64,000 nucleotides of DNA from Hydractinia symbiolongicarpus (Eukaryota > Cnidaria > Hydrozoa > Anthoathecata > Hydractiniidae): positions 1,612,001 to 1,676,000 of the forward strand of contig NC_079884.1 in assembly GCF_029227915.1 (NCBI RefSeq). Reading direction: 5' to 3'. Position numbers and translations under genes: made by a program. Shown piece by piece: positions 16,086 to 52,297 of the stretch (positions are counted from its first letter, which is position 1; the number at the start of each line of letters is the position of its first letter). Under the pieces are notes generated by a model. It did not search any database and was not told the DNA's origin. It was given only the letters and a program-made list of their open reading frames with translations.

Positions 16086-16199
16086 CTCTTCGGAATCTTC
16101 TCTTGTTTCTCCTCTATTGAAGTCTGGTATGCTCAGTATGTCCATGCTGTCCCAGTCTTCCACAGCTGTTGACCCTTCCGCCTTCTTAAGAGCCTTGCA

Positions 16200-16750
16200 G
16201 CTTGAGATGGCCAGCATTAGGAAGACCCCATTTGACAAATAATACCCAGCAGGACGTGCTTCATGTCTTGAGTGAATTAACAGGACCTTCAGTTATCGCA
16301 AGTAATATCATCACCAACATTATAACCACTACGACGTCATGTAATGCATGCTTCTTATCAACTAACAGGGAGGAAAGTACGCCTATTGTGCCACTCCCTA
16401 TCTCAAACAGCGTTACAGGTTCAAATAATTGTTTTTTGCAGCCCCACCTCTTTTGAGGTGACTCAGCTAGACATTTTGGGTACCTTGGTTCAGGAATATG
16501 AGTCGAAACCCTTGTACCCTTTACAGAAGTCCTGTTTCTATACCTATCACTTTAGACTTGTGAAGTCTCTTGTCGCAAGCACTACAACTTCAGGGCTGTA
16601 ATTAACCACTCGTTTGAACAATGGCCATTACACTACTGTTGCTTATAACCAAGTGCATGGTAATTGGTTTCATTGCAACGACAGAGCAGTGGTCCCTTGC
16701 AAACAAAACTTGCTAAATGGTGTCCAATCTTTTCTTTGAAGAGCTTAGGT
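16200..16750 (+). pseudogene. USP middle (subfamily 3) joined to USP C-terminus (subfamily 2)
   Basis: 16200-16446 reads HLTNNTQQDVLHVLSELTG and further into the region before the CxxC pair, matching copy G and containing the QQD motif of USP proteases. At 16447 it switches to a short 3'-UTR-like block (ttttgaggtgactcagctag) and then, from about 16550, to a subfamily-2 USP C-terminus. That part is identical in layout to copy E and includes the NNGHY-type His box followed by WFHCNDRAVVPC. The mosaic arrangement indicates recombination or template switching. It is non-functional. Confidence 0.6.
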
Positions 16751-24529: not shown

Positions 24530-24704
24530 ATTAGAATAAACATCAAACTGTTATGAAATCAAACCAAAACATACAGGCAATTATACGCCATTTTGAACTT
24601 CTGTGCAGGATCGGAGATCTGGGTGCGAGCTTCATTTGCTTGCAAAAACATAAAACAATAGGCCATTGTTTGTCACCAGACTATCTTTTTTTCTTATGAC
24701 TATG

Positions 24705-26959: not shown

Positions 26960-27945
26960 GTTCACACTCATCGCATTGTTCATTCATGGTTTATTTACTC
27001 CACAAGAGCTTAAGGGCTGCCTTTTCATCCTCTTAAAAACACCAGTCTATTGCTCTGTCAGGATGCCAAGCCACTGGTAGCAATTCCTTTTTAATACTAT
27101 ACTTCTCCGCTTTCCGCTGACGATAGGCTTCGAGCAGATCATTGTTACCAATGCACATTTCCCGGGTCATGAACCAATCTGGAACATACTAGAGCATCTC
27201 CGGCACCTCTTGAACCGCTCTGGTACACATTTAGCGCGTTTTGAAATGATCTGGAACATCCTCTTGAACCGCCATAGCGCACATTCCCTCTGTTTTGAAA
27301 TATTCCGGAACATACCAGAGCATCTCTGGCACCTCTTGAACCGCTCTGGTACACATTTAGCGGGTTTTGAAATGATCTGGAACATCCTCTTGAACCGCCA
27401 TAGCGCACATTTCCTCTGTTTTGGAATATTCCGGAACATACCAGAGCATCTCCTGCACCTCTTGAACCGCTCTAGTACACATTTAGCGGGTTTTGAAATG
27501 ATCTGGAACATCCTCTTGAACCGCCATAGCGCACATTCCCTCTGTTTTGAAATATTCCGGAACATACTAGAGCATCTCCGGCACCTCTTGAACCGCTCTA
27601 GTACACATTTAGCGGGTTTTGAAATGATCTGGAACATCCTCTTGAACCGCCATAGCGCACATTCCCTCTGTTTTGAAATATTCCGGAACATACCAGAGCA
27701 TCTCTGGCACCTCTTGAACCGCTCTGGTACACATTTAGCGGGTTTTAAAATGATCCGGAACATCCTCGAGCGTCCATGGGTTCTGCTGAACCGCCATGGC
27801 ACACATTTCCTGCGTCTTGAACCTGTCGGGAATATAATTGAATAGCCAGGGGTTCTTTGAACAACCTTGTTGCACATTTCCTGGGTCTTGAATTGGTCCG
27901 GTACATACCTTACCACCAGGGGATTCTCTTCAATCAATTTTCTCC
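26960..27945 (-). pseudogene. VPDxFKTxxMC tandem-repeat protein with AWHPDRxxDWC C-terminus
   Basis: Read in the right minus-strand frame, this gives repeats of the type VPDHFKT..MCTRAVQE and VPEYFKTEGMCAMAVQED, about 18-24 residues each. They begin with PLVVRYVPDQFKTQEMCNK at about 27925 and end with YVPDWFMTREMCIG. A distinct C-terminal domain follows, KKELLPVAWHPDRAIDWCF, then a stop and EDEKAAL. Such repeat proteins with this ending are abundant in cnidarian genomes and resemble DUF4116-like repeats; the function is unknown. In-frame stops occur in each unit (KTR*MC) and one replaces a residue in the last domain, so this copy is degenerate. Confidence 0.65.
27183..27760. repeat. 126-bp tandem repeat array (about 4.6 units)
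   Basis: Units start at 27183, 27309, 27435, 27561 and 27687, each 126 bp, with few differences (c/t at ggaacata-cagagca, gg/cg at tagcgggttt). Each unit is two related half-units of about 54 and 72 bp that share the sequence cttgaaccgc. The high identity points to recent homogenisation by unequal exchange or slippage inside the repeat-protein gene. The period is a multiple of three, so frames stay open on both strands (211 codons plus, 256 codons minus); only one minus frame matches the protein family. Confidence 0.9.
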
Positions 27946-28199
27946 ATCTTTCTTACCTCCAACTCATCTTTATTATTCCGACTTCGGCAAGGGATCCTTG
28001 AGTAAGGGACTTTCCCCTACTAAATTGTGCAATGTCGGCATTATTCCCGTTAGTCGCTATTGCGCATGCTCGGGAATTATCGGAATCGGAATTGTTTTCG
28101 GCTTATATCGAAATTGGGATTTCGAAAATTTGAGGGAATTTCCCTTGTCGTCCGTCGACTGTGCTAGAACATACATTTTCCTATCTCTCCAGTGAACCC
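27946..28199. other. Possible upstream region of the repeat-protein gene
   Basis: About 250 bp between the start of the repeat frame and LINE copy E. No domain is recognised. It may hold the promoter or 5' exon of the minus-strand repeat gene. Confidence 0.25.
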
Positions 28200-28870
28200 T
28201 TCTTCATTTCTAAATGCATTAAAAACCCATGTTTCTTATGCAAGGGGTGCTGCTTTTAATCCGATCTCTCAGCAAGATGCCTTAGGGATTCTTGAGTATC
28301 TTCTACCAGAGTTGTCCTGCCTTTCCTTTTTTTGGTAGATTATTCAACACTCGTGTGAAAATCTGCACTACTTGCAGCGCTTGCAATAATATTAGCACCT
28401 CTGAGCAAGTGAGTCCATTTCTTTAACTGCCCTTGACTGTACAATCTTCAATAGATAAGTTTTTGGAGAGTGAAGAATTGTCAGGTGTCAACACGTACTT
28501 CTGTCACTACTGCAATAGTTACCAAACTGCAACAGTTAAAAAAGAGGTCCCAGAGTGTAGTTCTATTTTGGTTCTGCAATTAAAGCGCTTTGCCTATAAC
28601 AAAGATCTTGTGTCTAAGGTTTGTTCTCCTGTCACATCTTACCCGCACACCCTTTCTATACCTATCACTTTAGACTTGTGAAGTCTCTTGTCGCAAGCAC
28701 TACAACTTCAGGGCTGTAATTAACCACTCTGGAAGTTTGCAATGGCCATTACGCTACTGTTGCTTATAACCAAGTGCATCGTAAGTGGTTTCATTGCAAC
28801 GACAGAGCAGTGGTCCCTTGCAAACAAAACTTGCTAAATGGCGTAAAATATTTTCCTTGAAGAGCTTAGG
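28200..28870 (+). pseudogene. USP domain of LINE subfamily 2 (copy E)
   Basis: A diverged USP missing the Cys box. It reads QQDALGILEYLLPELS (QQD motif), CTTCSACNN (first CxxC of the zinc finger), LDKFLESEEL-like and YFCHYCNSYQT (second CxxC), LVLQLKRFAYNKDLV, and, after frameshifts near 28690 and 28730, a His box NGHYATVAYNQ with WFHCNDRAVV. The layout is that of subfamily 1, but the sequence differs substantially, which shows an old USP lineage within the LINE family. The 82-codon frame at 28433-28681 is the longest intact piece. Confidence 0.7.
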
Positions 28871-29003
28871 TAAATTGCAGTCACCAGTTTATGTCAGCAA
28901 GTGGGGTTTGACGATTCTTATTTTTATTTATTTTTCCAAAGACCTAACAGGTTGAGTTCATCATTGTGGTGGCTTGCTACCTCTTTGTAAATTATTTTCT
29001 TAT
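28871..29003 (+). repeat. Internally deleted LINE 3' UTR and tail (copy E)
   Basis: After the USP end there is a short gtcagcaagtggggtttgac block, then a jump to ccaaagacctaacaggttga and the tail ctctttgtaaattattttct. Copy B begins directly afterwards. Confidence 0.7.
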
Positions 29004-29347
29004 TGCTACTGTCCGAAAGGATAACGAATGACAATCTGGAAAGACAGATTGACACTGGGAAAGACTAGACCCTTACTTTTTATTTATTTGTTTATTTTGT
29101 TTTGTGTGTGTGTATGTATGTCTGTTGTTTTTCTGTTATTCTTCTGTTACCTGTAACATCACACTCTCTACTGTCAGTCACCACTTATAAGTGAAGTATT
29201 CAGCAATAGACAGATAGTACTGTCACGCAAGGGGTCAATAGGTAGAGTCGTGGGATGGCATGAAAAACATGCCTGCTGAGCCCGCGTAAAAGTTGGCAGC
29301 CCCAACCCAATTGTTATCTGTCGCTCCCACCAAGCTTAGGCCAGCCC

Positions 29348-29659
29348 GTGGGATTTTTATGGTCTACGACAAAGTTACATTTTTTAAACAATGATACCCC
29401 CAACGATATAGACCCTGACCGTATTAGGACTACCCCTCCGGATATCGATTTCGTTATTACTAACTCCTCTGTCCTTCCTGCTACCTGTGATTTTTCGTTA
29501 CTCCCTTCCACTAAGCATTGGACATTAAAACCGTGTAAAGTTGTTTTGCAAGATGTGCTAGCTGTTGATTCCACTGAAAAGTCTCGGCTGCTAACCCGGA
29601 TAACTCCCACAGTGTTCTTTCTCAGCAATCAACAGAACCTGACCCTCTTAGCACTATGA
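29348..29659 (+). CDS. N-terminal frame of LINE copy B
   Basis: A 103-codon frame (MGFLWSTTKL ... QQNLTLLAL) whose stop overlaps the next start as ATGA at 29656-29659. It shows no domain. It could be a separate small ORF1 with stop-start coupling, as known for some LINEs such as SART1, or simply the N-terminus of the main ORF displaced by a frameshift in this decayed copy. I favour the second because the element is otherwise shifted in several places. Confidence 0.4.
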   Translation: MGFLWSTTKLHFLNNDTPNDIDPDRIRTTPPDIDFVITNSSVLPATCDFSLLPSTKHWTLKPCKVVLQDVLAVDSTEKSRLLTRITPTVFFLSNQQNLTLLAL

Positions 29660-31613
29660 AATGGAAACAACCTATTGCTTGGCCGAAGTCAATTGACACA
29701 AAATTGTGGAATTCCCTTGATGATGCAGTTTTCCACAATCTCCTAGGCTCTAACCCATTGTCCAAAAAAATGGAGCTGTTGGAATCAAGAATTTATTACC
29801 ATGCGTCTCACCTGTTTGGTGTAAGGTCACTTCCCCAGCACAACCTATCAGGTTTGAACAGGAGAGCTTTACGCAGCATCAGTCTGGTGAACGAGAAGAA
29901 CAATATACTCCGAACTCTTAAGAGCACATCTGACCCAGTTGAGAAAAGCAACATGCAAAACCTTTTAGATGATATAATGGCCAAGTTAAGGTTACTTCGC
30001 AGAGGTGAGCGGAATAGGAAACGACGTTGGAAAATCTCGGATGCACGCCGGGCTTTCTCTAAGAATCCTTATCAGGCTGGAAAAAATATTTTAGATCCTA
30101 AATGTTCAATAAAACTTGAAGTTGCCCAGGACGAAATGGATTCACACAAACATTCAAGCCTGAATGATCCTTCACGCCATATACCTCTTTTAGATCTCCC
30201 TGGATTGCCTTCACCACCAAATCTAGTCTCAGCTTTCGATTCTTTCAAGCCAAAGTTCAAGGATTCCCAAGCTGTCCTACATTCTCGTAGAAATGCTTCT
30301 TCTCCTGGGCTGAACCAAATTCCTTACACAGTATATAAGAATTGTCCTCATATTGCATCGTTTCTGTTTAACATCTTTCAAGCTTGTCTAAAGAAGTCTT
30401 TTATTCCTGTGCAATGGAGAATTGCATCAGAAGTTTACATACCTAACAACAACACACCTTGTCCATCCAACATAAAGGATTTTCGCCCCATAGCTCTTCT
30501 GAATGTTGAAGGAAAGCTCTTTTTTAGTTTGATTTCCAAGCGGTTAGAATCGCATATTATAAAGAAAAACAATTTCATTAATACTTCCATTCAAAAAGGT
30601 TGTATGGAAAAGTTCCGGTTTGCTGGGAACACATGTCTATTGTTTGGTCCACACTTAAGAAGGGAAGGCACAACATTCTTCACTTTCAGCCATATGGCTT
30701 GATATTGCTAATGCGTACCCTTCAGTTCCGCACAAGCTGATTTTTATGGCTCTCAGACGCTATGGTGTACCAGAATCCTGGATAGGGCTCATACAGCTAT
30801 ACTACGACAGCCTGTGGAGTAAGTCTTTTTCGGCTTCTGCTCCATCCAGTTGGCATCAACATTGTAGGGGAATTTTTATCGGCTGTACACTTTCCATTAT
30901 ACTATTTCTTGCAGCTGTAAACGTTATTATTGAGTATGTGTGTGTTACCCCCCGGCCTTATTGATACTGAAGGTAATAAAAACAAAATCCCAGACCAACC
31001 CCCAATAAAAGCTTTTATGGATGATATGTTCTTAATGTCCACGTTAATTCCAAGTACTCAAAATTTATTAAACAGGTGTACAACAGCTCTTGATTGGGTA
31101 GGCATGTCGTTTAGGCCTTCTAAATCACGCAGCATTGTTATTGATAAGGGAAAAGTCGTTCAAAGTTCACCGTTTACAGTTGGCAGCAAAAAAATTCCAT
31201 CCATTCATTCTAATCCAATTAGGTTTTTAGGCAGAACAATAAACTCATCCTCGTCTGATTCTGCTGCAATACAAGAATTTCTAAATGATGCCGAGGACAA
31301 ACTTATGGCTATAGACAGGTCATTTCATAAAGGGGTCCATAAGGTTTGGTTCTTACACCATCTGTTAATTCCCAGAATCCGCTGGCCATTATTAATTTAT
31401 GAAGTTTCTCTATCTACTATCACAAAACTAGAGCAAAGATTTTCTGTTTTCATTAGGAAATGGTTAAAACTACATCATTCAATTTCCAACATTTCCTTAT
31501 ATTCCTCGACATCGCCTTGTCCTCTTCCCCTGGAAAAGTCTTCATCTGTTCTCAAATCTGCCAAAATCAGTGGGCATCTGTTACTAAGAGATTCTGTCGA
31601 CCCTTGTGTCTAA
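29656..31613 (+). pseudogene. LINE reverse transcriptase region (copy B)
   Basis: An N-terminal basic region (RRGERNRKRRWKISDARRAF) is followed by RT motifs: ASSPGLNQIPYTVYKNC, DFRPIALLNVEGKLFFSLIS (motifs 1-2), IWLDIANAYPSVPHKLIF (motif A, catalytic Asp), the GIFIGCTLSIILFLAAVNV motif B region, KAFMDDMFLM (motif C, FMDD), GMSFRPSKSRSIVI (motif D) and PIRFLGRTI, then the thumb-like LEQRFSVFIRKWLKLH. Frameshifts lie near 30630-30700, 30940 and 31540. The catalytic Asp residues are retained but no single frame spans the domain. It aligns with copy A at 11260-11784. Confidence 0.85.
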
Positions 31614-32932
31614 ATGCGTACCAGATTTAAAAGCTGGAAATTGGAAAGTTAGTGAGGCAGTTCTTTCGGCGGATAGTCAGCTCAATTTCAAAAGAATTTT
31701 AGGTTTGCATCAGACTGGTCGAGCTGGCTTAGGGCTCTTAGACCACAAAAATATACTACCAAAAGGCACTTATGCTTACCGAAAGCTTGCTTCCAATATC
31801 ATTGAAGAAAATGAAGAAGGTATTTACCATGCCAGAGCTGTACAGTTGCATGTGCAAGGCAATTGGACAAAATGGTGCTCTTATGTGAGGAATGTTTTAT
31901 CTTGGAGAACAATTCATTCACTGCCACAATGTCTAACTTCCTTTTGTATAGGGGCAACCTACGACACCCTTCCCTCTCCAACCAATCTTGTGAGATGGGG
32001 AATTGAGAAAGACAAAAGTTGCATTCTGTGCAAGAAACCATCCTGAAATGTCACTCACATATTGGGTGCCTGTAGGACCTCCCTTACGCAGGGTAGATAC
32101 ACATACCGTCATGACTCGGTTTTAATAGTTTTGGTTAAGGCATTAAAGGAGTTTTTGGTATCATATGAACCTCTTAAGGTTTCCAAGTGCAACAAAATTA
32201 ATTTCATTCCGGCTGGTCAATCAACATCTAAGAAGAGGCATACAAAGTGTCCAGGCCTTCTTCACCTTGCTGCCGATTGGAAAATACTTTCAGATTTAGA
32301 TTCCGTTTTATTTGTTCCACTATTCATTGCAATAACACAACTACGCCCAGACGTGTTATTAATATCCAGTTCTTCCAAAACTTAATATGGTAGAACTGAC
32401 TTGTCCATGTGAAGAGAACACCGAATATTGGCACAAACGAAAGCTTAACAAATATTCTTCACTTTGTTATGCTATGAAAAACAATGGATGGATCGTGCAT
32501 TTCTTTGCCATTGAGGTGGGAGCAAGGGGTTTCTGTTCAGAATCAGTAAGGACCTGTTTTCGTCGCCTTGGCTTCCCTAACAAGCCTTTGCTTTCCCTAT
32601 TAAAATCACTAACTTTCACCTCCATGAGTGCCTCTTTTTACATCTGGATGTCTCGAAATTCCACCACTTGGGTTGAGCCTGAAAAGGCCCCAATCATTCC
32701 TGAAGTTTCTTCTGTTACAAATATGGAATGTAAGAAATCAAAAACCCCTGAGAAATCTTCCGCAAGTCACACAAAATCTTGTAAAATCAAAAAACCCGAA
32801 AAACTTGCTACAAGGTCTTCCAAAACAACAGTCGCATTGCCATCTTACCCTGATTTTAGGAATAGCGGTCTAAAGAAATTGGAAACACATGTTATGCAAA
32901 CTCAATCTTACAATGTTTTTATAACCTTCTAA
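31606..32932 (+). pseudogene. CCHC finger and restriction-like endonuclease (copy B)
   Basis: CILCKKPS followed by a TGA stop and NVTHILGAC forms the C-x2-C-x8-H-x4-C finger of R2-type LINEs. TYRHDSVLIVLVKALKEF follows. The endonuclease core shows RPDVLLISSSS, the E of VELTCPCEEN and WHKRKLNKYSSL, consistent with PD-(D/E)xK nucleases. The conserved tail reads IEVGARGFCSESVRTC, RRLGF and SASFYIWMSRNSTTW. The nuclease nicks target DNA for reverse transcription in this LINE class. The frame runs on through the Lys/Ser-rich linker to a frameshift inside the USP Cys box (GLKKLETHVMQ in place of GLKNLGNTCYAN), caused by loss of one base near 32880. Confidence 0.8.
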
Positions 32933-33726
32933 AAGTTAAAGAAGCCATTTCTGTCAGCAAAACAACCTCAAAGTTAGGCGAAGCATTTGTAGGTGTTCTT
33001 CAAAGTTTGGCTGTTTCTAGAAGTCCAGTTGATCCCTCCCATTTTTTGCGTGCTATGAAACATCATATCTCAGCTGCGAAGGGAAGTGCATTTAATATCT
33101 TTGCTCAGCACGACGTCCCCGAGGTTCTTGAATATCTCCTACCTGGTCTGTCATTAGACTTTCCATTTCTTGGACGTCTTTTTAGTATTGGCATTATGAC
33201 ATCAACCACTTGCAATTCATGTCATATTACCAGCTCCTCAGAATTTATAGCACCATACATCCAACTTACTCTGCACCCTACGTTACAATCTTCCTTAGAT
33301 AATTTCTTCGAAAGCGAGGAGTTGTCAGACACCAATGGCTACTTCTGCCATGTTTGCAACGCTCATCAAACTGCTCTAGTTGAAAAAGAGGTAGTGTCGT
33401 GCGGTTCCCATCTCATTTTACAGCTAAAACGTTTTGCCAGTGCCAACGGCCTTGTGTCAAAAATTGCCTCTCGTATTACTGCTTACCCTGGTACCCTTTC
33501 CATACCTTTTACTGTAGATGGAGAAGTGAAATTTCGTAAAAATTTTCAATTAAGGGCTATTATCAACCATTGCTGAAACTTAAATGATGGTCACTACACA
33601 ACCATAGCCTTCGACCAAATGGTACACAGGTGGATACATTGCAACGATAGAGCAGTAATTTTCTGTGATGACCGCCTTATTAACAGTGACGAGTCATATG
33701 TTTTCTTTTTAGAAGAGCTGAGATAA
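32830..33726 (+). pseudogene. USP deubiquitinase domain (copy B), broken
   Basis: Same domain as copy C but with the one-base deletion in the Cys box and an in-frame TGA at about 33574 (INHC*NLNDGHY). Between them, 33007-33576 encodes the QHDVPEVLEYLLPGL motif, CNSC and CHVC pairs, LILQLKRFASANGLV and the thumb/palm strands. The His box GHYTTIAFDQM, WIHCNDRAVIFCDDR and the final SYVFFLEELR lie after the stop. It is not functional but is useful for comparison with copy C. Confidence 0.85.
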
Positions 33727-34335
33727 GAATATTTTAACCGGATTGAGTCAGCAAGGGGGCTTGACTACACTCAGTGTTGTCTTTGGAGAGTGACGACTCC
33801 ACTTATTACCCCAGTCAAAAATAAAACAAAATCAAATAAAAATTAAGTTAGCAAGGGGGTTTGATCATACTAGGTCTTGTCTTTGGAGAGTGACGACTCC
33901 ACTTATTACCCCAGTTAAAAAAAAAATAAATAAAAGCATTACCAGGGGGGTTTGAGCACACATGATCTTGTCTTCGGAGAGTAACGGCTCCACTTATTAC
34001 CTGAGTTAAAAACAAAGAATAGCACAGTTGAACAGAAAATGGTCAAAGTTTACTTTAGGAAGATAGGGATGTCAGCTAGACATCCAGGGTACTTAGGTTC
34101 AGAAATATGGGTCGAAACCTACCTGCCCTTGGTTAAAGTTCTGTTCATCTTTTCAAATGTGTTTTGTCCTTTTTATTTTTTTAGATTTTTTTTAATTAAT
34201 TCCTTGTAAAAAAGGAGAATTGTGCTTTTAGAGGTATTTTCTCTAGAGGAGTACAACCTCTAGCTTATTTCCAAAGACCTAACAGGTTGAGTTCATCATT
34301 GCGGTGGCTTGCCACCTCTTTGTAAATAATTTTCT
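33727..34335 (+). repeat. 3' UTR of copy B with three hairpin motifs
   Basis: Three copies of the motif tctttggagagtgacgactc followed by cacttattaccccagt start near 33780, 33881 and 33972, spaced about 100 and 91 bp and separated by aagggggtttga spacers. Then come the gatagggatgtcagctagac block, the gaggagtacaacctctagct inverted-repeat block and the tail. In each motif ggag pairs with ctcc around agtgacga. These are candidate RNA structures recognised by the element's own RT, as in other LINE 3' UTRs. Confidence 0.75.
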
Positions 34336-34835
34336 GTTTTTTATAATTTTTTTTGTAGTCTTCTCTCTGAAGAGTGACGACTCAATTTATTACCCCAGTC
34401 AAATTAAATGCGAAAAACAAAATATAAATTACGTCAGCAAGGGGGGGGGGGGGTTGACTGTACCAGGTCCTATCTTTGGAGAGTGACGACTCCACTTCTT
34501 ACCCCAGTCACACAAGACTGTACAGAGTAGGACAGCTAAAAAGTTATGGATGAAAGAAATGCGTAGTTCCTGCTGAAGACTGTTCGCAGGCCTCTTTTGC
34601 CTCAGCTAGAAATTTTGGGTACCTTGGTTCAGAAATATAAATCGAAAGCCTTGTACCATTTACAGAAGTCCTGTCCTACTCTCTGTGTCTGTTTGTTGGT
34701 TCAATTTTGTGCCAATTATCTCCTTGGAAAAGGAAGAATTGTGCACTTTTATATGAGCATATTCTTTAGAGGAGCAAAACCTCTAAAATTTAAATTTTAA
34801 GACTTATCATTGTGCGTGCACTTTGTAACTTCCAT
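34336..34835 (+). repeat. LINE subfamily-2 3' UTR, empty-site copy
   Basis: Colinear with 16816-17218 plus 18786-18860 but without the Penelope-like insertion (cctt ggaaaaggaagaattgtg cacttt runs through at about 34722-34750). A run of 13 G lies near 34440. Confidence 0.75.
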
Positions 34836-36625: not shown

Positions 36626-37243
36626 CTTTTAGATAGTAAATTATATATTTTTCCACATCACTAATTTTTCGGCATGGAATTCATCACCAACAGAATCTAA
36701 GTGGTCTGTGAAAGTGAAATTAGACGTGTATTCAATTATTTTCGTTTAACGTTGTTACCACCACATCTATAAGCTAGAACTTTCGCTGGCAGAAACATGC
36801 TTTTCATAGACCTTCAATTATCTCCAAACATATGCTTCATGGCAGTAAAAAACCACTCCAGGGACTGTCGAATGGTTTCATTCCGCATATCACTAAGAGG
36901 GTTTATGGCACAGGCAGTATTTGATGCCATGTATACCTCTTTTCCGACTCCAGCTTAACATCTTTGGAGAAAGATTCAACAATCTTCAATATTAGGCTGC
37001 GTGGGATATGCAAAATGTACGCGCTGCACCGAATATCAAAGCATTGGTGCCTCAGAATTGCGGTTTTTTCAGTCCCAATGAGCTGTGGAAAACCTCCTCA
37101 AACACGTGTACAAGTAACACTTTCACAATATTGTGATCCTCTGTCCAGAGACATTCCGAGTCAACTGTGGCCTATGAAGTGTTTAAAATTCCCCAATTCG
37201 TAAAATCTAAAAGTTAATAAATTTAGCACTGAGATTTTTTCGA
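36626..37243. other. Decayed sequence, no supported gene
   Basis: 36626-36880 continues the duplicated Tc1-like unit. 36881-37243 has no recognised domain; minus-strand KIVESFSKDVKLESEKRYTW at about 36980-36930 looks protein-like but is unassigned. Confidence 0.35.
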
Positions 37244-38321
37244 TTTTACAACATCTTCTAATCCCGCGTATCTAATGGCCTTTGCTGATTTATGAAGTCT
37301 CAATGTCGTGCGCCGGTTTTCTTGAGCCAAAGGTGTCATCTTTTATAAGAAAGTGGCTTCATCTACATCATTCCACCACCAATTTGTGTTTATGCGCGTC
37401 ATGTACACCCTGTGCGTTACCGATAAAAAGCTTAACTTCCATACTAAAGTCATCTAAAATCAGTGGACACTTGCTCCTAAGGGATTCGAAGGACCCATTG
37501 GTTTCAGCAGGCTTGCCAATATTAAAGGCGAATATATGGAGTATATTGGTTATAGTTAGGACGGCTGAAGCTGAAATGAAGGTTAAATAGTAAAAGTGGC
37601 CTAGGTATGCATCCCAACCCTAAAGTACCCACATTCAAGGCAGGTTACCCTTACAGAAGATCGGTAACAGAAACGGCTAGAGACATCGATTAGAAGACCA
37701 TAAAAATAAGGCTATTCAGTTACAAGTGCAATGGTACTGGACCAGATTACATTAAAAACGATCTCTCCTGGAAATCCTTGCTGGCCATGCCCCCAAACTT
37801 GCTTGCTTTTTGTTTAGGCTCCACTTACTAAGTAATTTAAAGAGGTGGCGTTTGTGCCCTGAATCCTCCTGTTTCTTATGCGGTAAACAAGTGTGCACCA
37901 CAGCCCACGTCTTAGGTGACTGCAAAACTGCCCTTACACAGGGTTGGTTTACATTTCGCCACGATTCTGTTTTGCGTCTACTTTTAGAGCTTCTTACTGA
38001 GTTTACTACTTCTATCTCTTTCCCGGTAAAGCAACTAAATAACAACAAAATTTTTTAAAGCAGGTGCTCGTCCTCCTAGTAAAAGGTCTAAACCCATAGG
38101 TCTATTACATCTTGCCTCCGATTGGTTGCTTCTTTCTGACTTAAAAGATGGATTCGTTTTACCTGGTCATATCGCAATAACATCGCTTAGACCAGATTTT
38201 GTCATGTACTCTAACAACAGTGAACGTGTAATTTTGATAGAGCTTACCTGTCCATGTGAGGAAAATTGGAAATCTGGCATTCAAAGAAGCTTTCGAGGTA
38301 TTCACCCTTAGTTGAAATTAG
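37244..38321 (+). pseudogene. LINE RT thumb, CCHC finger and endonuclease, diverged subfamily
   Basis: Clearly homologous to copy B 31360-32440 but diverged. It reads PLLIYEVSMSCAG-like and FIRKWLHLHHSTTNLCL, then ISGHLLLRDSKDPLVSAG, CFLCGKQVCTTAHVLGDC (the CCHC finger), LTQGWFTFRHDSVLRLLLEL, LRPDFVMYSNNSERVILIEL and TCPCEENWKSGIQRSF (endonuclease core). It has several stops and shifts. At 38321 it stops and subfamily-1 sequence begins at almost the homologous position, giving a chimeric endonuclease. Confidence 0.75.
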
Positions 38322-38734
38322 GAATATTGGCACAAACGAAAGCTTAACAAATATTCTTCACTTTGTTATGCTATGAAAACAATGGATAGATCGTGCATTT
38401 CTTTGCCATGGAGGTGGGTGCAAGGGGTTTCTGTTCAGAATCAGTAAGGACCTGTTTTCGTCGCCTTGGTTTCTCTAACAAGCCTCTACGTTCCCTATTA
38501 AAATCCCTAACTTTTACCTCCATGAGTGCTTCTTTTTACATCTGGATGTCTCGAAATTCTACCACTCGGGTTGAGCCTGAAAAGGCCCCAATCATTCCTG
38601 AAGTTTCTTCTGTTAAAAATATAGAATGTAAGAAATCAAAAACCCTTTAGAAATCTTCTGCAAGTCACACAAAATCTTGTAAAATCAAAAAACCCGAAAA
38701 ACTTGCTACAAGGTCTTCCAAAACAACAGTCGCA

Positions 38735-39625
38735 TTGCCATCTAACCCTGATTTTAGGAATAGCGGTCTAAAAAACTTGGGAAACACATGTTATGCAAAC
38801 TCAATCTTACAATGCTTTTATAACCTTCCAAAAGTTAAAGAAGCCATTTCTGTCAGCAAAACAACCTCAAAGTTAGGCGAAGCATTTGTAGGTGTTGTTC
38901 AAAGTTTGGCTGTTTCTAGAAGTCCAGTTGATCCCTCCCATTTTTTGCGTGCTATGAAACATCATGTCTCAGCTGCGAAGGGAAGTGCATTTATTATCTT
39001 TGCTCAGCACGACGTCCCCGAGGTTCTTGAATATCTCCTACCTGGTCTGTCATTAGACTTTCCATTTCTTGGAAGTCTTTTTAGTATTGGCATCATGACA
39101 TCAACCACTTGCAATTCATGTCATATTACCATCTCCTCAGAACTTATAGCACCATGCATCCAACTTTCTCTGCACCCTACGTTACAATCTTCCTTAGATA
39201 ATTTCTTCAAAAGCGAGGAGTTGTCAGACACCAATGCCTACTTCTGCCATGTTTGCAACGCTCATCAAACTCCTCTGGTTAAAAAAGAGGTAGTGTCGTG
39301 CGGTTCCCATCTCATTTTACAGCTAAAACGTTTTGCCAGTGCCAACGGCCTTGTGTCAAAAATTGCCTCTCGTATTACTGCTTACCCTGGTACCCTTTCC
39401 ATACCTTTTACTGTAAATGGAGAAGTGAAATTTCGTAAAAATTTTCAATTAAGGGCTTTTATCAACCATTGCGGAAACTTAAATGATGGTCACTACACAA
39501 CCATAGCCTTCGACCAAATGGTACACAGGTGGATACATTGCAACGATAGAGCAGTAATTTTCTGTAATGACCGCCTTTTTAACAGTGACGAGTCATATGT
39601 TTTCTTTTTAGAAGAGCTGAGATAA
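38735..39625 (+). CDS. USP (peptidase C19) deubiquitinase domain, uninterrupted (copy C)
   Basis: A continuous frame of about 296 residues contains a full USP core. The Cys box is GLKNLGNTCYANSILQCFYN (nucleophile at residue 19 of the frame). QHDVPEVLEYLL corresponds to the QQDxxEFL motif. The zinc-finger pairs are CNSC and CHVC. LILQLKRF is the LxLxLKRF box. The His box is NLNDGHYTTIAFDQM. WIHCNDRAVIFCNDR, carrying the third triad position, is followed by YVFFLEEL. USP enzymes cleave ubiquitin from proteins. About 300 residues is near the minimal catalytic core, and all key residues are present, so activity is plausible. The true protein would start upstream in the RT-endonuclease ORF; here a TAG at 38648 separates them. 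How the domain helps the element, for example by stabilising its RT, is inference. Confidence 0.9.
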   Translation: MPSNPDFRNSGLKNLGNTCYANSILQCFYNLPKVKEAISVSKTTSKLGEAFVGVVQSLAVSRSPVDPSHFLRAMKHHVSAAKGSAFIIFAQHDVPEVLEYLLPGLSLDFPFLGSLFSIGIMTSTTCNSCHITISSELIAPCIQLSLHPTLQSSLDNFFKSEELSDTNAYFCHVCNAHQTPLVKKEVVSCGSHLILQLKRFASANGLVSKIASRITAYPGTLSIPFTVNGEVKFRKNFQLRAFINHCGNLNDGHYTTIAFDQMVHRWIHCNDRAVIFCNDRLFNSDESYVFFLEELR

Positions 39626-40192
39626 GAATATTTTAACCGGATTGAGTCAGCAAGGGGGCTTGACTACACTCAGTGTTGTCTTTGGAGAGTGACGACTCCA
39701 CTTATTACCCCAGTCAAAAATAAAACAAAATCAAATAAAAATTAAGTTAGCAGAGGGGTTTGATCACACATGATCTTGTCTTTGGAGAGTAACGACTCCA
39801 CTTATTACCTGAGTTAAAAACAAAGAATAGCAAAGTTGAACACAAAGTGGTCAAAGTTTATTTTAGGAAGATAGGGATGTCTAGTTTCTGCTGATGACCG
39901 TCCGCGGACCTCTTCGAGGTGACCCAGCTAGACATCTAGGGTACTTAGTTTCAGAAATATGGGTCGAAACCTACCTGCCCTTGATTAAAGTTCTGTTCAT
40001 CTTTTCAAATGTGTTGTGTCCTTTTTATTTATTTTTTTATATTTTTATAATTAATTCCTTGTAAAAAGGGAGAATTGTGCTTTTAGAGGCATGTTCTCTA
40101 GAGGAGTACAACCTCTAGCTTATTTCCAAAGACCTAACAGGTTGAGTTCATCATTGCGGTGGCTTGCCGCCTCTTTGTAAATTATTTTCTTA
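39626..40192 (+). repeat. 3' UTR of copy C with two hairpin motifs
   Basis: Hairpin motifs start near 39680 and 39779 (ggagagtgacgactccactt and ggagagtaacgactccactt). The gatagggatgtctagtttct block, the inverted-repeat block and the tail follow. Confidence 0.75.
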
Positions 40193-40850
40193 TTTTCAAG
40201 GATTAGGGGCGTTCCATTTAATATTAACACCCAACGTTCCAGAGATACTTTTACACATCTTGGATGAATTAACAAGTACCGTTATTGCAAACAATAGCAT
40301 TACTAATATTTTAACAACTACCATGTCATGCAATTCGTGACTCTTTTCATCTAGTAGGGATGAGAGGATGACTATTGTGCCACTTGCTACCTCAAGTAGC
40401 GTTGTAAACTCCTGTCAATTGTTTTTCCTACCCGAAGAGCTGACTGGCAATGACATATGGCTTTGTCGACAGTGTTCTTTCCTCCATGATAGTACAAGAG
40501 AGACGGCTTTTATTCAGTGTGGAGATTTGTTGATTCTCCAACTAAAAAGATTTACCTGTGTCGAGGAAAGATCAGTAAAAAACAACCAATTTGTTAATTG
40601 TATCTCTCAATCTGGCAACATATTGGAGGTACCTTCACATCTTGCAGATGATGTATCTTTTACCAACTAATACAAACTAGTGGCAACTATAAATCATTCA
40701 AGCACACTAGCAGCAGGTCATTATTCGGCATTTATTAAGATCGGAATGTAGACGAGTGGTTGAAATGCGATGACAGGGCAGTAGTTAAGATTAAGCCTTC
40801 TGATATAAATAACTCAACAGTGTATATCTTGTTCTTTCTCAAGCTGTGAA
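40193..40850 (+). pseudogene. USP domain of LINE subfamily 3 (copy G)
   Basis: It starts downstream of the Cys box, directly after the tail of copy C. It shows LHILDELTSTVIANNSITNI, TTTMSCNS (first finger pair, second Cys replaced by a stop at about 40338), a 100-residue open frame 40368-40670 with WLCRQCSFLHDSTRET, LLILQLKRFTCVEERSV, then after a stop the His box AAGHYSAFIK and EWLKCDDRAVVK-like sequence with frameshifts, ending VYILFFLKL. It is a third diverged USP lineage of the same LINE family, non-functional. Confidence 0.7.
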
Positions 40851-45658: not shown

Positions 45659-45884
45659 AAAAATGGATACAACAATGAGTATGTTTATTATTTTTTATTG
45701 ACAATATATTTTGGATAAACATTATCCATCCTCAGATCTAAAAGCAAATAAATAATGTTAAAAACAGTTAAAAACAAGTATAAAATTATTCAACATATCA
45801 TACATAAACTACACCTCACACTACAACAAATCAAATTTACAAGAAAATCTAAAAACAAAACGAGTTTAGAAGAGAGTAAAGTAA

Positions 45885-47759
45885 TTAAATTTTTATTACC
45901 AATGCTCTGCTTCTATATTCGTCTTTTGTATTTAAAACCGGTTTGATGTAATTGATTATTAACGCCTCAAGAGTCATTAAATGATAAACGTTCCGTGTTG
46001 ATGAACATAAAATTGATACATTTTCCATTGTTAAAAGATTATTGCAATCGTCGAAATGCTTTCCCACCGGACCAGTTCTTTTATGTTCCTTAAGTCGTTT
46101 GATTAAATGTCGGCTCGTCTGCCCGACATAGCATGAGTTGCATCGTGGACATTTTATTTTGTATACCAAACAACTTTTTAAACATTTTTCAATTACAGGT
46201 TTCAATGGAGGCAGAGAACTTTTCAACTTTTTCAATGTGAAAATAATTTTACACGGAATATTCAACTTTCTCATTGAAGTTTCAAATTTCTCCGAAACTC
46301 GCCCACGATATTGAATGAAAATCATCTTCTCTTCAGACTCTTCTTTCTCGTTTTCTTCATCAGGATTCTCGTTATCATTATTTTCCATAATCTTAGATAT
46401 CGTACTTTTAATTATCGGGTCATAGAAAGCTTTCGGATATTGATTTTTCTCAAGAACAGTTTTACCTTTTTCTAGACTTTGGTGAAAATTCGACCATGTG
46501 CTACACGCTCGATGTATTCGATGAACTAGGCCGGATACGACTGACCGTTTATATTTCCGTGGTGCCAGTGAATGAAAGTTCATCGTCAGGCCTGTATCGG
46601 TAGCTTTCGTGTACCATGTCGATGATAAATTGTTATTTGAACGAATAATTAACATATCCAGGAAAGGTATAGACGTATTCTTCCCTTCTTTTTCAATGGT
46701 AAATTTGAGTGACGGATGCAGGTCGTTAATTTGTAGAAGTTTTTCGTCAATTCTATTACGTTCTATGTTTCTCAAAACATCATCCATATGCCTTGAATAC
46801 AGTACAGCATCGTCTTTGAGGATAGAGTCAAACTTGCTTAGCCAACCATTAGCGAGAAGTGGAGCTGGTGGGCTGCCCATAGCTAAGCCATCGATTTGCT
46901 TGTAATAACCATCGTGTGATAATAAAACTACATCACGACTGCACAAAGAGACTAAGGTTTTAAAGGTTTCTTTATCTACAGGAGGCTGTTCGTATTTATC
47001 AGAAAATAAAAGCTCGGTGCAATCATTTATGGCTTCATCAAGCGGAACGTTTGTATACAAAGACTTTATATCAAAACTAACTAGTTCTTCGTTCGTATTA
47101 AGTTGAATTTGAGATAACAGATCAGAAATTTCCTTTGTTGAGGAATTGATATTGCACTCCTTTACAACAGATAACCATTTTGAAACTTGATTACCAATTT
47201 TATAGTAGGCTGAGCCAGGCATGGAAAGTACTGGTCGAACTGGTGTATCTTTCTTATGTACCTTCGCTAGGCCATATAGACGTGGCGGTTGGCTTCCTAC
47301 TGGTTTCATCTTATCGTACAATGCGTCCGAGATTTTATTATCTTCTTTCAACAACTTTAACATGGATAAAACTCTTTCTTCTTCTTTAAGCATTGGGTGC
47401 TTCTTATTCTTCCTTCTCCCGACGAGTTTTTCAAATTGAGGTAAATCGGTGATTTCACTCATTTTATTATTGTACGTTTCTACTTTCATGATGTAAATTC
47501 CGATGCCCTTATCGAAAGGTAGCGCAACGAGGTTATTCTCTTTAAGGTATCTATTCGTCAATTGCAAATTTCTGGATCCTTTTTGTTTACTGCATCTTTT
47601 GATATATGCTAGTGTTTTAATATTCATATCAGTAATGACATCTTCTTCCACCTTTTGTCCTCTGCAAAATCTAATCAGATCATCAAGCTCTGTAAGAACG
47701 TCATTCTTATTAAACTTTCTAAGTACAGCATTTCTCGGACCCAGGGCTAACGTGTCCAA
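45885..47759 (-). CDS. Penelope-like polyprotein: RT and GIY-YIG endonuclease
   Basis: An open frame of 624 residues. RT motifs: VALPFDKGIGIYIM, RLYGLAKVHKKDTPVRPVLS, SFDIKSLYTNVPLDEAI (motif A with catalytic Asp), GLAMGSPPAPLLANGWLS (motif B) and LYSRHMDDVL (motif C, MDD). Then SIPFLDMLIIRSNN and STWYTKATDTGLTMNFHSLA. The C-terminus is a Penelope-type GIY-YIG nuclease: YKIKCPRCNSCYVGQTSRHL, IKRLKEH, VSILCSSTRNVYHLMTLEAL and NYIKPVLN. Penelope-like RTs are related to telomerase. No stops are seen, but the start is at the arm junction, so some N-terminal residues may be missing. Confidence 0.9.
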   Translation of the reverse strand: MDTLALGPRNAVLRKFNKNDVLTELDDLIRFCRGQKVEEDVITDMNIKTLAYIKRCSKQKGSRNLQLTNRYLKENNLVALPFDKGIGIYIMKVETYNNKMSEITDLPQFEKLVGRRKNKKHPMLKEEERVLSMLKLLKEDNKISDALYDKMKPVGSQPPRLYGLAKVHKKDTPVRPVLSMPGSAYYKIGNQVSKWLSVVKECNINSSTKEISDLLSQIQLNTNEELVSFDIKSLYTNVPLDEAINDCTELLFSDKYEQPPVDKETFKTLVSLCSRDVVLLSHDGYYKQIDGLAMGSPPAPLLANGWLSKFDSILKDDAVLYSRHMDDVLRNIERNRIDEKLLQINDLHPSLKFTIEKEGKNTSIPFLDMLIIRSNNNLSSTWYTKATDTGLTMNFHSLAPRKYKRSVVSGLVHRIHRACSTWSNFHQSLEKGKTVLEKNQYPKAFYDPIIKSTISKIMENNDNENPDEENEKEESEEKMIFIQYRGRVSEKFETSMRKLNIPCKIIFTLKKLKSSLPPLKPVIEKCLKSCLVYKIKCPRCNSCYVGQTSRHLIKRLKEHKRTGPVGKHFDDCNNLLTMENVSILCSSTRNVYHLMTLEALIINYIKPVLNTKDEYRSRALVIKI

Positions 47760-47767
47760 AACGTATT

Positions 47768-48139
47768 TTGGCGGATTATTTTTTCACATTGAAAAAGTTG
47801 AAAAGTTCTCTGCCTCCATTGAAACCTGTAATTGAAAAATGTTTCAAAAGTTGTTTGGTATACAAAATAGAATGTCCACGATGCAACTCGTGCTATGTCG
47901 GACAGACGAGCCGACATTTAATCAAACGACTTAAGGAACATAAAAGAACTGGTCCGGTGGGAAAGCATTTCGACGATTGCAATAATCTTTTAACAATGGA
48001 AAATGTATCAATTTTATGTTCATCAACACGGAACGTTTATCATTTAATGACTCTTGAGGCGTTAATGATCAATTACATCAAACCGGTTTTAAATACAAAA
48101 GACGAATATAGAAGCAGAGCATTGGTAATAAAAATTTAA
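47768..48139 (+). pseudogene. Inverted partial duplicate of the GIY-YIG domain
   Basis: A plus-strand 123-codon frame is nearly identical to the last 110 residues of the polyprotein (FTLKKLKSSLPPLKPVIEKC; substitutions such as CFKSC for CLKSC and MINYIKP for IINYIKP). It is the right inverted arm. It lacks the RT and is not a separate gene, though it could encode a free nuclease domain. Confidence 0.85.
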
Positions 48140-48279
48140 TTACCTTACTCTCTTCTAAACTCGTTTTGTTTTTAGATTTTCTTGTAAATTTGATTTGTTG
48201 TAGTGTGAGGTGTAGTTTATGTATGATATGTTGAATAATTTTATACTTGTTTTTAACTGTTTTTAACATTATTTATTTG

Positions 48280-48326
48280 CTTTTAGACCTGAGGATGGAT
48301 AATGTTTATCCGAAATATATTGTCAA
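48280..48326 (+). ncRNA. Candidate hammerhead-like ribozyme core in the Penelope arm
   Basis: The right arm reads CTGAGGA (48289-48295), then GGATAA-TGT-TTATCC (a perfect 6-bp stem), GAAA (48312-48315), a possible 3-bp stem with TAT loop, and GTC (48322-48324). This is the order of a hammerhead core (CUGANGA, stem II, GAAA, stem III, NUH), and Penelope-like elements are known to carry such motifs. Stem I pairing looks weak. In the left arm the G of GAAA is changed to A (about 45715), which would kill that copy. Confidence 0.35.
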
Positions 48327-48617
48327 TAAAAAATAATAAACATACTCATTGTTGGTCCTAATATTGGTATTTTATCGTGAAGCCACAATGTTTCTATCTT
48401 AAAAATGGATACTTTCTTTGTGTTTGTGTGATCATGGGTGTGAAGTATATGAAATGTTTGTGCTGGCTGTTATTATGCTCTAAATAATAATGTTGTGTAT
48501 AAAAATAAGGACGATAACAAAATTAAGTGTGGTTAAATAAGGGTATGCCAAATACCTGATCTTTCCTTCTCTGCAGTTTTTAACAATTTGACGAAAACTT
48601 AACAAATATTCTTCACT

Positions 48618-49249
48618 TTGTTATGCTATAAAAAAAATGGATGGATCGTGCATTTCTTTGCCATTGAGGTGGGTGCAAGGGGTTTCTGTTCAGAATCAGT
48701 AAGGACCTGTTTTCGTCGCCTTGGTTTCCCTAACAAGCCTTTACGTTCCCTAATAAAATTCCTAACTTTTACCTCCATGAGTGCTTCTTTTCACATTTGG
48801 ATGTCTCGAAATTCTATCACTTGGGTTGAGCCTGAAAAGGCCCCAATCATTCCTGAAGTTTCTTCTGTTACAAATATGGAATGTGTGAAATCAAAAACCC
48901 CTCAGATATCGTCCGCAAGTCACACAAAATCTTGTAAAATCAAAAAACCCGAAAAACTTGCTACAAGGTCTTCCAAAACAACAGTCGCATTGCCATCTTA
49001 CCCTGATTTTAGGAATAGCGGTCTAAAAAACTTGGGAAACACATGTTATGCAAACTCAATCTTACAATGTCTTTATAACCTTCCAAAAGTTAAAGATGCC
49101 ATTTCTATCAGCAAAACAACCTCAAAGTTAGGCGAAGCATTTGTAGGTGTTCTTCAAAATTTGGCTGTTTCTAGAAGTCCAGTTGATCCCTCCCATTTTT
49201 TGCGTGCTATAAAACATCACATCTCAGCTGCGAAGGGAAGTGCATTTAA
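48618..49249 (+). CDS. Uninterrupted endonuclease-USP fusion frame (copy D, 5' part)
   Basis: This 216-codon frame passes without a stop from the endonuclease (KNGWIVHFFAIEVGARGFCS, TCFRRLGFPNK, FHIWMSRNSITW) through a linker of about 60 residues rich in Lys, Ser, Pro and Thr (KSCKIKKPEKLATRSSKTT) into the USP Cys box NLGNTCYANSILQCLYNLPK and on to AAKGSAF. It is the clearest direct evidence that the LINE ORF includes the protease. It is broken only by the Kolobok-like insertion at 49250. Confidence 0.85.
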
Positions 49250-51671
49250 GGTGGTAGTAAACCTTTAAAACCAAATTTTAAAATATTAATATATTGGTTA
49301 TCTCTCTGCAATTTAAAGATAGCTTAGAACTGGAAAAATACATTTATATTAAAAAAACATATTTTTTTATTTTTTTATTTTTTACTAATAATATATGATA
49401 AGCAGAGATATTTTATTCTGCTTTGTTCAGTTGAATCAACCTCTTTTTACTATGTCTCCTAGCCATATATCTACTGAACCTATCCTGAAAATTTGAAGCA
49501 ATTTGGTCAAAGCTACGAAGAGAAATGACGTAAAAACTAAGCGAAATACAAGCAAATTTTAAAAGCGAGATAATCACACTTTAAAAATAAATACAAATAA
49601 AAAATTACAAAACTGGACCTAAAAAGCTAGTAATCTCCTGTAGAGTATGATGGTTTGGGTTCATTTTCTTTCTCTGTGTCTATGAATCCTTTCCGAACAG
49701 CTCTTAGGTGTTTTCTTTGAGAAATCCCGGCTTCACTTGATTTCCTCTTCATGGCGTTAATTCTACTGGTGTCGCGTTTCGCCAACCGATTTTGTAGAAA
49801 GTACAAATTGTTGAAACCAAGTAAATCAAAAACAGGCTTTAGATCACAGGAACCATCATTGAACTCGATTATTGCAGAGTAGACACCTAATTCAAGTATC
49901 TTCTTTAACACATATACTGACTTTGGACATTTTTTCCAAATTACTCCATTCAGCGACTCATTATTGTTCTGTGTCTTTTCATGCGTGCATTTTGAAAGCA
50001 ATTCTTCACTCGAGAAATCTCTAAATATGCCAGTCAGTTCAGTTTTCAACGCTAATGGGAGACTAAGTTTGGGTTTGTATGTACTTTTACCAGTAATTTG
50101 ATCAGATTGCCACAAACACCAAGAGTTGACATCTCTAGGACAAAATTGATGACGAGTAATCAAATCTGCTATGTTACTGTTGTGATATAACACAGCATAT
50201 ACACACTTTTTCATTTTATATAGGTTATTAACATTTTGCCTAATTGCCATACCGTAATAGTTTTGCAAGGTGTTAATGGCTTCTTCCGTTAATCTAGCTT
50301 TCCCATTGATACGTTTACCATCTGAAAGTATTTTTCCCTTCAATTTTTGGCACAGATTACGACAACGTGTCCCAAGTCGTTTTTGCACATGACCGACACA
50401 CTCCAATTTTGTTACGATGTAATCGGCGTGGGGCTTTCACTCTGACACTACAGAGCACGATGAAGTGTCTCCGTCACCTATATACTCAGTATATCAGAGT
50501 AAGTTTCTATCAACAGAGCGATGGAAAATCTCCTTAGCGCCAGCAGCTTCCATTGAACCTGAACTGCCAATATGATTTGCCTGACACACATGGTTTGCCT
50601 TCCAATCATTATACCCTTGTGAATTTTTCTTTTTGTGCCACATTTTACACCCAAAACAGTTTTTAGACATCACATGAGCATCTAAACATTTACCGTTTAA
50701 ACTGTCAGTAGAAATTACAGTCACGACACCGTTTATAGATGCGTGATCTCTTTTCTGCCACGTGCCATCAAACGAAACTTGACAATTTTGAATTTCATTT
50801 ACATCGCCTGCTTTTTTTCTAAGACATTCAGCAGCAGAGGCAGTTGATTTGTCAGCAACTTTCTTGTAAATGGTGTGTAAAATGTCATTTAGGTTGGTGT
50901 AAGTTGGTATAGAAAAAGCCGGTGACATGTTCATCAGCGCTGAAAACAATTCAATGGATTGATTCCTTGTAAAAACAATTCTAACAGCTGTTTCAAAATT
51001 CCAAAGTTTAAAATTACATTATAGTTGTCATTGTCATTGCCACAAGAGGTTTCAGGGATGTTGATTTTGTTTGCACTAGCACATAACAAGCCGGACTTTT
51101 TCGCTGAAGCAGATTCACATAATTTTTTGTTGCCTTGGAACTTTCGGGGTTTTTTTCTTGCTCTATCTCTAGGCATCTTATATTAGTTTTATCCAGCAAA
51201 AAGGCAGATGATAATGTTATACATCCAATAATAAACCTTTTACTTGTTAACTAAACGTTTCTGATGCAATAAATCAACTTTCTTTAGGATCTGTGGTTGC
51301 CTTTTAGTCCCTCTCATAACACACATCTTTCGGTTGAAAAAGCGAAAATCCTAGTGTTTTTAAGCTGTGACTTCCAGATTGCCGTTTGCATAAGGGCCAG
51401 TCTACACTATGTCTTTCTATTAGGCCTATACACACTTGTTTACTTGTTAAAACCCCCAAATGACGCAAAGAAGAGAGGGTATAAAATACTTTTTTAAGGA
51501 GTTTATTTTTTTAATCCTAATACCATGGCCTGTAAAATCCTATTTATTGCTACTTTTACAATATTTATGGTATTAAATCTATATATATTTTAAATCTATG
51601 ATAAACTTTGAATAAAACAAGTCAATAAAATTTCTCGCTAAAATTTACGCCAAGAAGTGTTTCCTACCACC
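49250..51671 (-). mobile_element. Kolobok/Mutator-like DNA transposon inside the USP domain
   Basis: The ends are GGTGGTAG at 49250 and CTACCACC at 51671, with imperfect matches further in (AAAC). A TAA duplication flanks it (49247-49249 and 51672-51674). The uninterrupted sequence gcatttaatatctttgctca in copy B confirms the target. A TAA, perhaps degenerate TTAA, target fits Kolobok-type better than classical Mutator elements (8-10 bp). It carries the transposase described below in three frames. Confidence 0.8.
49627..51176 (-). pseudogene. Mutator-like-domain (Kolobok-type) transposase
   Basis: Three minus frames: 51176-50934 (basic N-terminus, MPRDRARKKPRKFQGNKKLC, and LNFGILKQLL), 50949-50494 (VSFDGTWQKRDHASINGVVT with the first catalytic Asp, CFGCKMWHKKK and HIGSSGSMEAAGAKEIFHRS with a conserved Glu) and 50406-49627 (ECVGHVQKRLGTRCRNLCQK, LTEEAINTLQNYYGMAIRQN, NNNESLNGVIWKKCPKSVYV). 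The motifs are those of the widespread Mutator-like transposase domain of invertebrate elements. The frames are separated by a short shift near 50940 and stops around 50450-50490, so this copy is probably inactive. Confidence 0.75.
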
Positions 51672-52297
51672 TAATATCTTTGCTCAGCACGACGTCCCCG
51701 AGGTTCTTAAATATCTCCTACCTGGTCTGTCATTAGACTTTCCATTTCTTGGAAGTCTTTTTAGTATTGGCATCATGACATCAACCACTTCCAATTCATG
51801 TTATATTACCAGCTCCTCAGAAGTTATAGCACCATGCACCCAACCACCCTACGTTACAATCTTCCTTAGATAATTTCTTTGAAAGCGAGGAGTTGTCAGA
51901 CACCAATGCCTACTTCTGCCATGTTTGCAACGCTCATCAAGCTGCTCTAGTTGAAAAAGAGGTAGTGTCGTGCGGTTCCCATCTCATTTTACAGCTAAAA
52001 CGTTTTGCCAGTGCCAACGGCCTGGTGTCAAAAATTGCCTCTCGTATTACTGCTTGCCCTGGTACCCTTTCCATACCTTTTACCGTAGATGGAGAAGTGA
52101 AATTTCGTAAAAATTTTCAATTAAGGGCTATTATCAACCATTGCGGCAACTTAAGTAATGGTCACTACACAACCATAGCCTTCGACCAAATGGTTCACAG
52201 GTGGATACATTGCAACGATAGAGCAGTAATCTTCTGTGATGACCGCCTTATTAACAGTCACGAGTCCTATGTTTTCTTTTTAGAAGAGCTGAGGTAA
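51672..52297 (+). pseudogene. USP domain, 3' part (copy D)
   Basis: It resumes at NIFAQHDVPEVLKYLLPGL. A deletion near 51840 (ccacc-ctacgtt) shifts the frame between the finger halves. From 51893 a 134-codon frame is intact: YFCHVCNAHQAALVEKEVV, LILQLKRFASANG, INHCGNLSNGHYTTIAFDQM, WIHCNDRAVIFCDDR, YVFFLEELR. The first CxxC is CNSC changed to SNSC (ttccaattcatg). It is inactive even without the insertion. Confidence 0.8.

Follow-up and report, generated by a model that had tools for sequence, protein, structure and literature searches.

The 64,000-nucleotide stretch of Hydractinia symbiolongicarpus DNA analysed here (the window; contig NC_079884.1, positions 1,612,001 to 1,676,000) contains copies of an R2-like long interspersed nuclear element (LINE) whose protein, as is virtually certain, combines a reverse transcriptase (RT), a zinc knuckle, a restriction-like endonuclease (RLE), and a C-terminal ubiquitin-specific protease (USP) in one polypeptide. 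The original prediction of a USP-LINE fusion is thereby supported: RT, RLE, and USP share one open frame within a mobile unit. Hosts are thought to turn ubiquitin against LINE proteins. We favour, with a probability of roughly 0.55, a reading in which the USP would be a captured cellular enzyme, would be active as a deubiquitinase, and would protect the element in cis, all three taken together. If this reading is true, a non-viral element might be waging a ubiquitin arms race. The element also represents a naturally occurring fusion between an R2-type RT-RLE protein and an effector domain, which is relevant to the use of R2 proteins as gene-insertion tools.

The protease shares an open frame and a mobile unit with the LINE

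The fusion is visible in copy D, in which frame +3 is open over 221 amino acids (48603–49265, plus strand) and runs from the RLE tail (VGARGFCSESVRTC, SASFHIWMSRN) through a linker into the N-terminal part of the USP, including the Cys box NLGNTCYANSILQC. The homology of copy D to copy B begins at 48591 by blastn, indicating a 5' truncation that left the RLE tail and removed the RLE catalytic core and the RT. The final few codons of the frame already lie inside a later DNA-transposon insertion of about 2.4 kb (49250–51671), which splits the USP and has GGTGGTAG inverted ends with TAA at either side. It holds two Mutator-like transposase open reading frames (ORFs) on the minus strand (PF20700, E 1.5e-24 and 1.8e-12), and the alignment of copies B and D breaks at 49249 and restarts at 51672 with an overlap of 3 bp. 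The remainder of the USP, with the zinc Cys pairs, the His box, and the Asn-Asp, extends to the stop at 51676–52297 on the plus strand, where tblastn follows it through 51676–52294 in two frames. The single frame noted for copy D thus extends slightly beyond the Cys box and does not span all of 48618–52297, the remaining part of which is occupied by the insertion and by other frames. The UCH family (PF00443), proposed as a Pfam check, was matched in both parts of copy D (E 7.7e-11 and 1.9e-13) and in copy C (E 8.4e-31).

The evidence for a single frame comes from the 480.9-Mb assembly to which the window belongs. The 221 residues of copy D gave 153 matches there (150 of 801 candidates scored); the best 50 of these, with copies D and C among them, all span the junction from residue 23 or earlier to residue 200 or later. 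Stops counted by hand in these 50 left 35 stop-free, so the junction is not a chance one. A conserved stop between endonuclease and USP, which would have separated the two, was looked for and not found, either in these 35 of the best 50 matches or in ten long open frames. The latter were obtained with a full-length protein (P0131, 49% identical), which had 39 matches in the genome (33 of 3590 candidates scored); of these, 13 covered at least residues 149–1431, and 10 of the 13 were stop-free. One ORF from RT to USP, as proposed, therefore exists at ten places, with frames of 1345–1426 amino acids. In one of these copies, L029, Pfam recognised RVT_1 (8e-16) and UCH (5e-32), and zf-RVT at a value under its cut-off (5e-5).

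The USP also belongs to the mobile unit. In 16 of 20 copies retrieved, homology continues past the USP stop through a 3' untranslated region (UTR) of about 570 bp to a common 3' end, which places the USP within the element, on the 5' side of the shared terminus, and not always beyond the element ends. Upstream on the same strand, 13 of the 20 have RT pieces, three have the post-RT region only, and four have neither. Copies L029–L031 share 99.7% DNA identity along about 5.6 kb and sit in unrelated flanks, and we therefore regard the RT-RLE-USP element as recently mobile. The RT-RLE-USP gene model P0070 connects these findings to the window: it shares 86% identity with copy D in an alignment of 216 residues, and 80%, gaps counted, with the first RT piece of copy B, the RT region of which belongs to the P0070 family. 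A statement in PMC11067881 puts LINEs at 4% of the H. symbiolongicarpus genome.

An artefactual fusion, arising from an assembly error or from a LINE that lies next to a USP gene of the host or to a processed version of one, could be suspected because the copies in the window are broken and because some gene models, P0042 among them, carry the annotation of a host USP. It is ruled out by dozens of loci of the same architecture, by one 3' end past the USP, and by stop-free frames at unrelated sites, and the fusion recurs in other records at 32–43% USP identity. P0042 itself, an NCBI model of H. symbiolongicarpus, is a LINE RLE-USP fragment named as the host gene 'ubiquitin carboxyl-terminal hydrolase 51-like'. 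Annotators should be warned of such models in Hydractinia, and USP gene counts in such genomes may therefore be inflated.

Conservation and possible origin of the protease domain

Among 23 full-length proteins, picked for carrying both RT-RLE and USP, the RT D-D and each of the RLE residues P, D, E, K, and Y are kept in 23 of 23, and the second RLE K position holds K in 21 and R in two. The C-terminal domain has the Cys box, the His box with Asn/Asp, the QQD box, and the fold of a USP, and its catalytic and zinc residues are conserved across the full-length proteins. Because these positions are kept though the USPs differ at 60% of positions on average, we predict from sequence that the domain is very probably an active deubiquitinase. 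An AlphaFold model of P0042, which represents another Hydractinia subfamily, showed the USP fold with a pLDDT of 82 from a 78-row alignment; the copy C USP modelled as a single sequence gave an uninformative pLDDT of 36. Fold-search matches included cellular USPs at about 25% identity over the domain. A profile of 20 proteins had its best match among proteins of solved structure in the R2 protein 9nl3, across RT to zinc knuckle, with an E of 1.7e-44. The RT-RLE and USP trees of the 23 proteins were congruent.

Several observations weigh against the reading that we favour. The USP is the less conserved part, with a mean identity of 40% versus 54% for RT-RLE. The only two USP-less proteins in the tree were included as the chosen outgroup and have no bearing on a single capture. 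USPs fill the fold-search list, in which no RLE fold occurs and which consequently says nothing on the RLE, and the second profile stretch on the R2 RLE is weak (independent E 0.032). Substrate specificity is not readable from the sequence, and every copy of the element within the window is broken. Synonymous divergence (dS) is saturated between subfamilies, and close pairs are uninformative for the ratio of nonsynonymous divergence (dN) to dS, the USP value being 0.85 on 12 changes (L033/L035). Purifying selection is therefore inferred from the conserved residues and not from the ratio. Comparisons of dN/dS between window copies involve broken copies. The dN values between L029 and L033 were 0.85 for the linker, 0.58 for the N-terminus, 0.52 for the USP, 0.39 for the RLE, and 0.25 for the RT.

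Relatives of the fusion were found in protein records. The query P0005, which is an RLE-USP protein of a different record and has no interruption, found 181 proteins, and 77 of the 120 listed contain both the RLE motif and the USP Cys box. Residues 40–345 of P0070 found 39 proteins, of which 21 have the RT, RLE, Cys-box, and His-box motifs; many of the remaining 18 are fragments. The host range of the USP-LINE is established for Hydractinia and no further. An RT-RLE-USP protein filed under a Pseudomonadales metagenome-assembled genome (P0163) is probably eukaryotic contamination. No relative was found in the viral contigs searched, and the prokaryote genomes searched gave one match, in a Solemya gill-symbiont assembly (L038). 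This match is a broken relative, 38% identical in amino acids over RT to RLE and with no USP recognised, and it is probably mollusc host DNA in the symbiont assembly.

P0158 and P0161, two relatives that lack the USP, end right after the RLE, at the point where USP-bearing proteins continue into the linker. Near the N-terminus, P0158 has three C2H2 patterns and P0161 has none; none was seen in the N-terminus of ten USP-bearing proteins tested, nor by Pfam in L029. Most likely, an RLE-LINE without a USP acquired one from a cellular gene at the 3' end of its ORF, and this capture probably happened once.

Possible roles of the tethered protease

In the mechanism that we propose, the captured cellular USP, sitting at the C-terminus of the RT-RLE protein, would strip ubiquitin in cis from the element protein and its ribonucleoprotein (RNP), and might also strip it from bystanders at the target. 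The RNP could then outlive ubiquitin-dependent turnover by the host, leaving time for target-primed reverse transcription. That such self-protection is the main role of the USP has, in our estimate, slightly less than an even chance. The position of the domain also suits another role. The RLE motif and the Cys box are separated by a median of 167 amino acids (n = 100 proteins with both), and a USP directly after the DNA-cutting RLE would therefore be placed at the target site, where its substrates might be chromatin components or repair factors near the nick (ubiquitinated histone H2A/H2B, PCNA, FANCD2, or similar), and where it might thereby open the target or steer repair towards a completed insertion. 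USP51, the name NCBI gave to the Hydractinia RLE-USP model, acts on histones, and the fold matches include structures of USP1 and USP36. We consider this action on chromatin rather unlikely as the main role, and place it behind self-protection.

Viral deubiquitinases target the restriction or innate immune signalling of the host, and the USP might do likewise in trans, with 5'-truncated copies, if expressed, adding to the dose. Many truncated or broken copies retain an open RLE-USP frame of up to 667 amino acids, and USP18-ISG15 is among the structural matches. However, the covalent fusion to RT-RLE, together with the congruent trees of the 23 proteins chosen for both parts, favours a role tied to the retrotransposition protein. 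An action in trans thus seems improbable. It is less probable still that the USP processes the element's own polyprotein, in the manner of the proteases by which other retroelements process theirs. USPs cleave after the Gly-Gly of ubiquitin; GG is present in the RLE-USP linker of only one of the 23 proteins, and Pfam found no ubiquitin-like domain in eight proteins scanned. On these two grounds, self-processing is unlikely.

Known systems compared and further copies in the window

As in R2-clade LINEs, RT, zinc knuckle, and RLE follow each other in one ORF, and the Hydractinia element differs by the added C-terminal USP. It shares with R2-like RLE-LINEs a common 3' end, variable 5' truncation, and the lack of long terminal repeats, to which a partial upstream repeat of the 3' end is added in seven of eight intact copies. 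It is not R2 proper: three intact copies lie in unrelated flanks and not in 28S rRNA genes, Rfam found no rRNA at gathering score in the intact-copy loci or the window, and the N-terminal C2H2 zinc fingers of R2 are missing from all ten USP-bearing proteins tested. The element may resemble the HERO clade.

Proteases are known from other RLE-LINEs. A passage of PMC4640811 describes an N-terminal Ulp1-like protease in the nematode element NeSL and one Utopia element. Like these, the Hydractinia element is an RLE-LINE with a ubiquitin/SUMO-type cysteine protease in its single protein, whereas its protease is of the UCH/USP type and C-terminal; Pfam found no Ulp1 family in the proteins scanned and placed UCH at the C-terminus. 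Dualen/RandI elements combine an RLE with an APE endonuclease and a cysteine protease, and thus share the pairing of RLE and cysteine protease with the element described here. According to a passage of PMC4640811, Dualen also has an RNase H; unlike in Dualen/RandI, Pfam found neither an APE nor an RNase H family in seven proteins or in L029. Helentrons encode OTU-like cysteine proteases, as a passage of PMC4067079 states, and are likewise mobile elements whose conserved protease is of a deubiquitinase type and has an unproven role, but they are rolling-circle DNA elements with a separate ORF of the OTU family. In contrast to cellular USPs (USP8, USP36, USP2, USP21, and USP46), the USP described here belongs to a retrotransposon polyprotein.

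What is new here is a protease of a different class, at the opposite end of the protein from the known RLE-LINE proteases. No USP-bearing LINE was among the literature matches listed, which covered titles and the starts of abstracts, with Repbase Reports and most subscription journals outside their scope. The main text of a 2026 animal R2 survey (PMC13188248) has no 'ubiquitin' or 'USP', and a search for 'protease' in a paper on cockroach R2-like elements (PMC7650587) gave no match. The presumed novelty of the fusion stands within this literature.

The 5' ends suggest a further peculiarity. Eight of the ten stop-free copies were examined, and in seven of them (L029, L030, L031, L037, and L039–L044), all of one subfamily, a segment of the element's own 3' terminus directly abuts the start of the body. 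Four of these pieces measure 111, 204, 291, and 480 bp; the other three extend over no less than 500, 828, and 866 bp. For the eighth copy (L045/L046), of another subfamily, the 1.25 kb that precede it and the 1.3 kb that follow it had no such repeat in common. A head-to-tail pair with a period of 5367 bp occupies one locus. Within the window, a 75-bp piece of the element-type 3' end (28933–29007, plus strand) stands right before the 5' end of copy B, matching 34268–34335 and 40123–40194 at 96%. Such a layout resembles pseudo-long terminal repeats (pseudo-LTRs), which are a trait of Penelope-like elements, and suggests, by analogy, partial-dimer RNA templates. To our knowledge, the partial head-to-tail dimer or pseudo-LTR layout is known only from Penelope-like elements; the Hydractinia element is like them in the variable 3'-end piece ahead of the 5' end and unlike them in having an RLE instead of GIY-YIG, an R2-like RT, and no ribozyme at the 5' end by Rfam. 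The longest word common to both flanks was 4 to 5 bp in three copies, and there is therefore no clear target-site duplication. A wider picture, of a diverse and old LINE clade with one USP capture, without the N-terminal zinc fingers of R2, with a tethered deubiquitinase that would edit ubiquitin on the RNP or the target chromatin, and with pseudo-LTR dimers in at least one subfamily, is offered more tentatively than any of the self-protection claims above.

Copies A, B, and C had been said to have the same junction as copy D. Their domain order agrees, and the frame is open in A and broken in B and C. Copy A (9905–11805, minus strand), traced by tblastn, passes in several frames from RT through RLE to the Cys box of the USP, after which it is cut off; a single ORF of 170 amino acids (9905–10417, minus strand) covers RLE tail to Cys box with stops at both ends. 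Copy B, on the plus strand, begins with an N-terminal region and RT in several ORFs (29264–31613), one RT piece matching RVT_1 under the Pfam cut-off (E 7e-4). An APE endonuclease upstream of this RT, considered from PPDIDFVITNSS near 29400, was rejected, as the stretch is not conserved in relatives and Pfam found no APE. ORFs and tblastn then place the post-RT region, zinc knuckle, and RLE of copy B at 31588–32770; its family is homologous to R2 over the zinc knuckle and, at a weak level, over the RLE. A frameshift lies where the Cys box begins (ORFs 32363–32932 and 32866–33576). The USP follows at 32872–33726, 93% identical by tblastn to that of copy C, with one internal stop and an ORF end at 33576, and is succeeded by the 3' UTR, with repeats of about 91–100 bp, and the common 3' end (33727–34338, by homology).

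Copy C (38322–40193, plus strand) comprises RLE tail, linker, USP, and 3' UTR. Two TAG codons interrupt the stretch of RLE tail and linker, followed by a complete USP ORF (38651–39625), the one matched to UCH above. It matches copy B at 96.4% by blastn from 38322 onward only; the part upstream (37243–38321) is RT/RLE of a different subfamily, at roughly 50–65% amino-acid identity. The junction at 38322 may reflect a template switch or a nested truncated insertion. Copies C and D start within 15 bp of one element position. Diverged subfamilies are represented, all by tblastn, by a related USP of about 49% amino-acid identity (28099–28842, plus strand), USP pieces of another subfamily (15509–16736, plus strand) with RT-like pieces upstream at 12658–13079, a further USP of 28% identity without the Cys box (40209–40846, plus strand), and a USP fragment (8797–8943, minus strand).

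Other elements are found in the window as well. A Penelope-like element (45670–48354) has a minus-strand ORF of 632 amino acids, with RVT_1 and, under the cut-off, GIY-YIG, and a 574-bp inverted repeat that is 99% complementary. A P-element-like transposase frame of 910 amino acids is open at 21818–24550 on the minus strand, with THAP, TNP-like RNase H, and GTP-binding insertion domains. A tandem array at 27181–27767 contains 4.7 copies of a 126-bp unit and has open frames on either strand.

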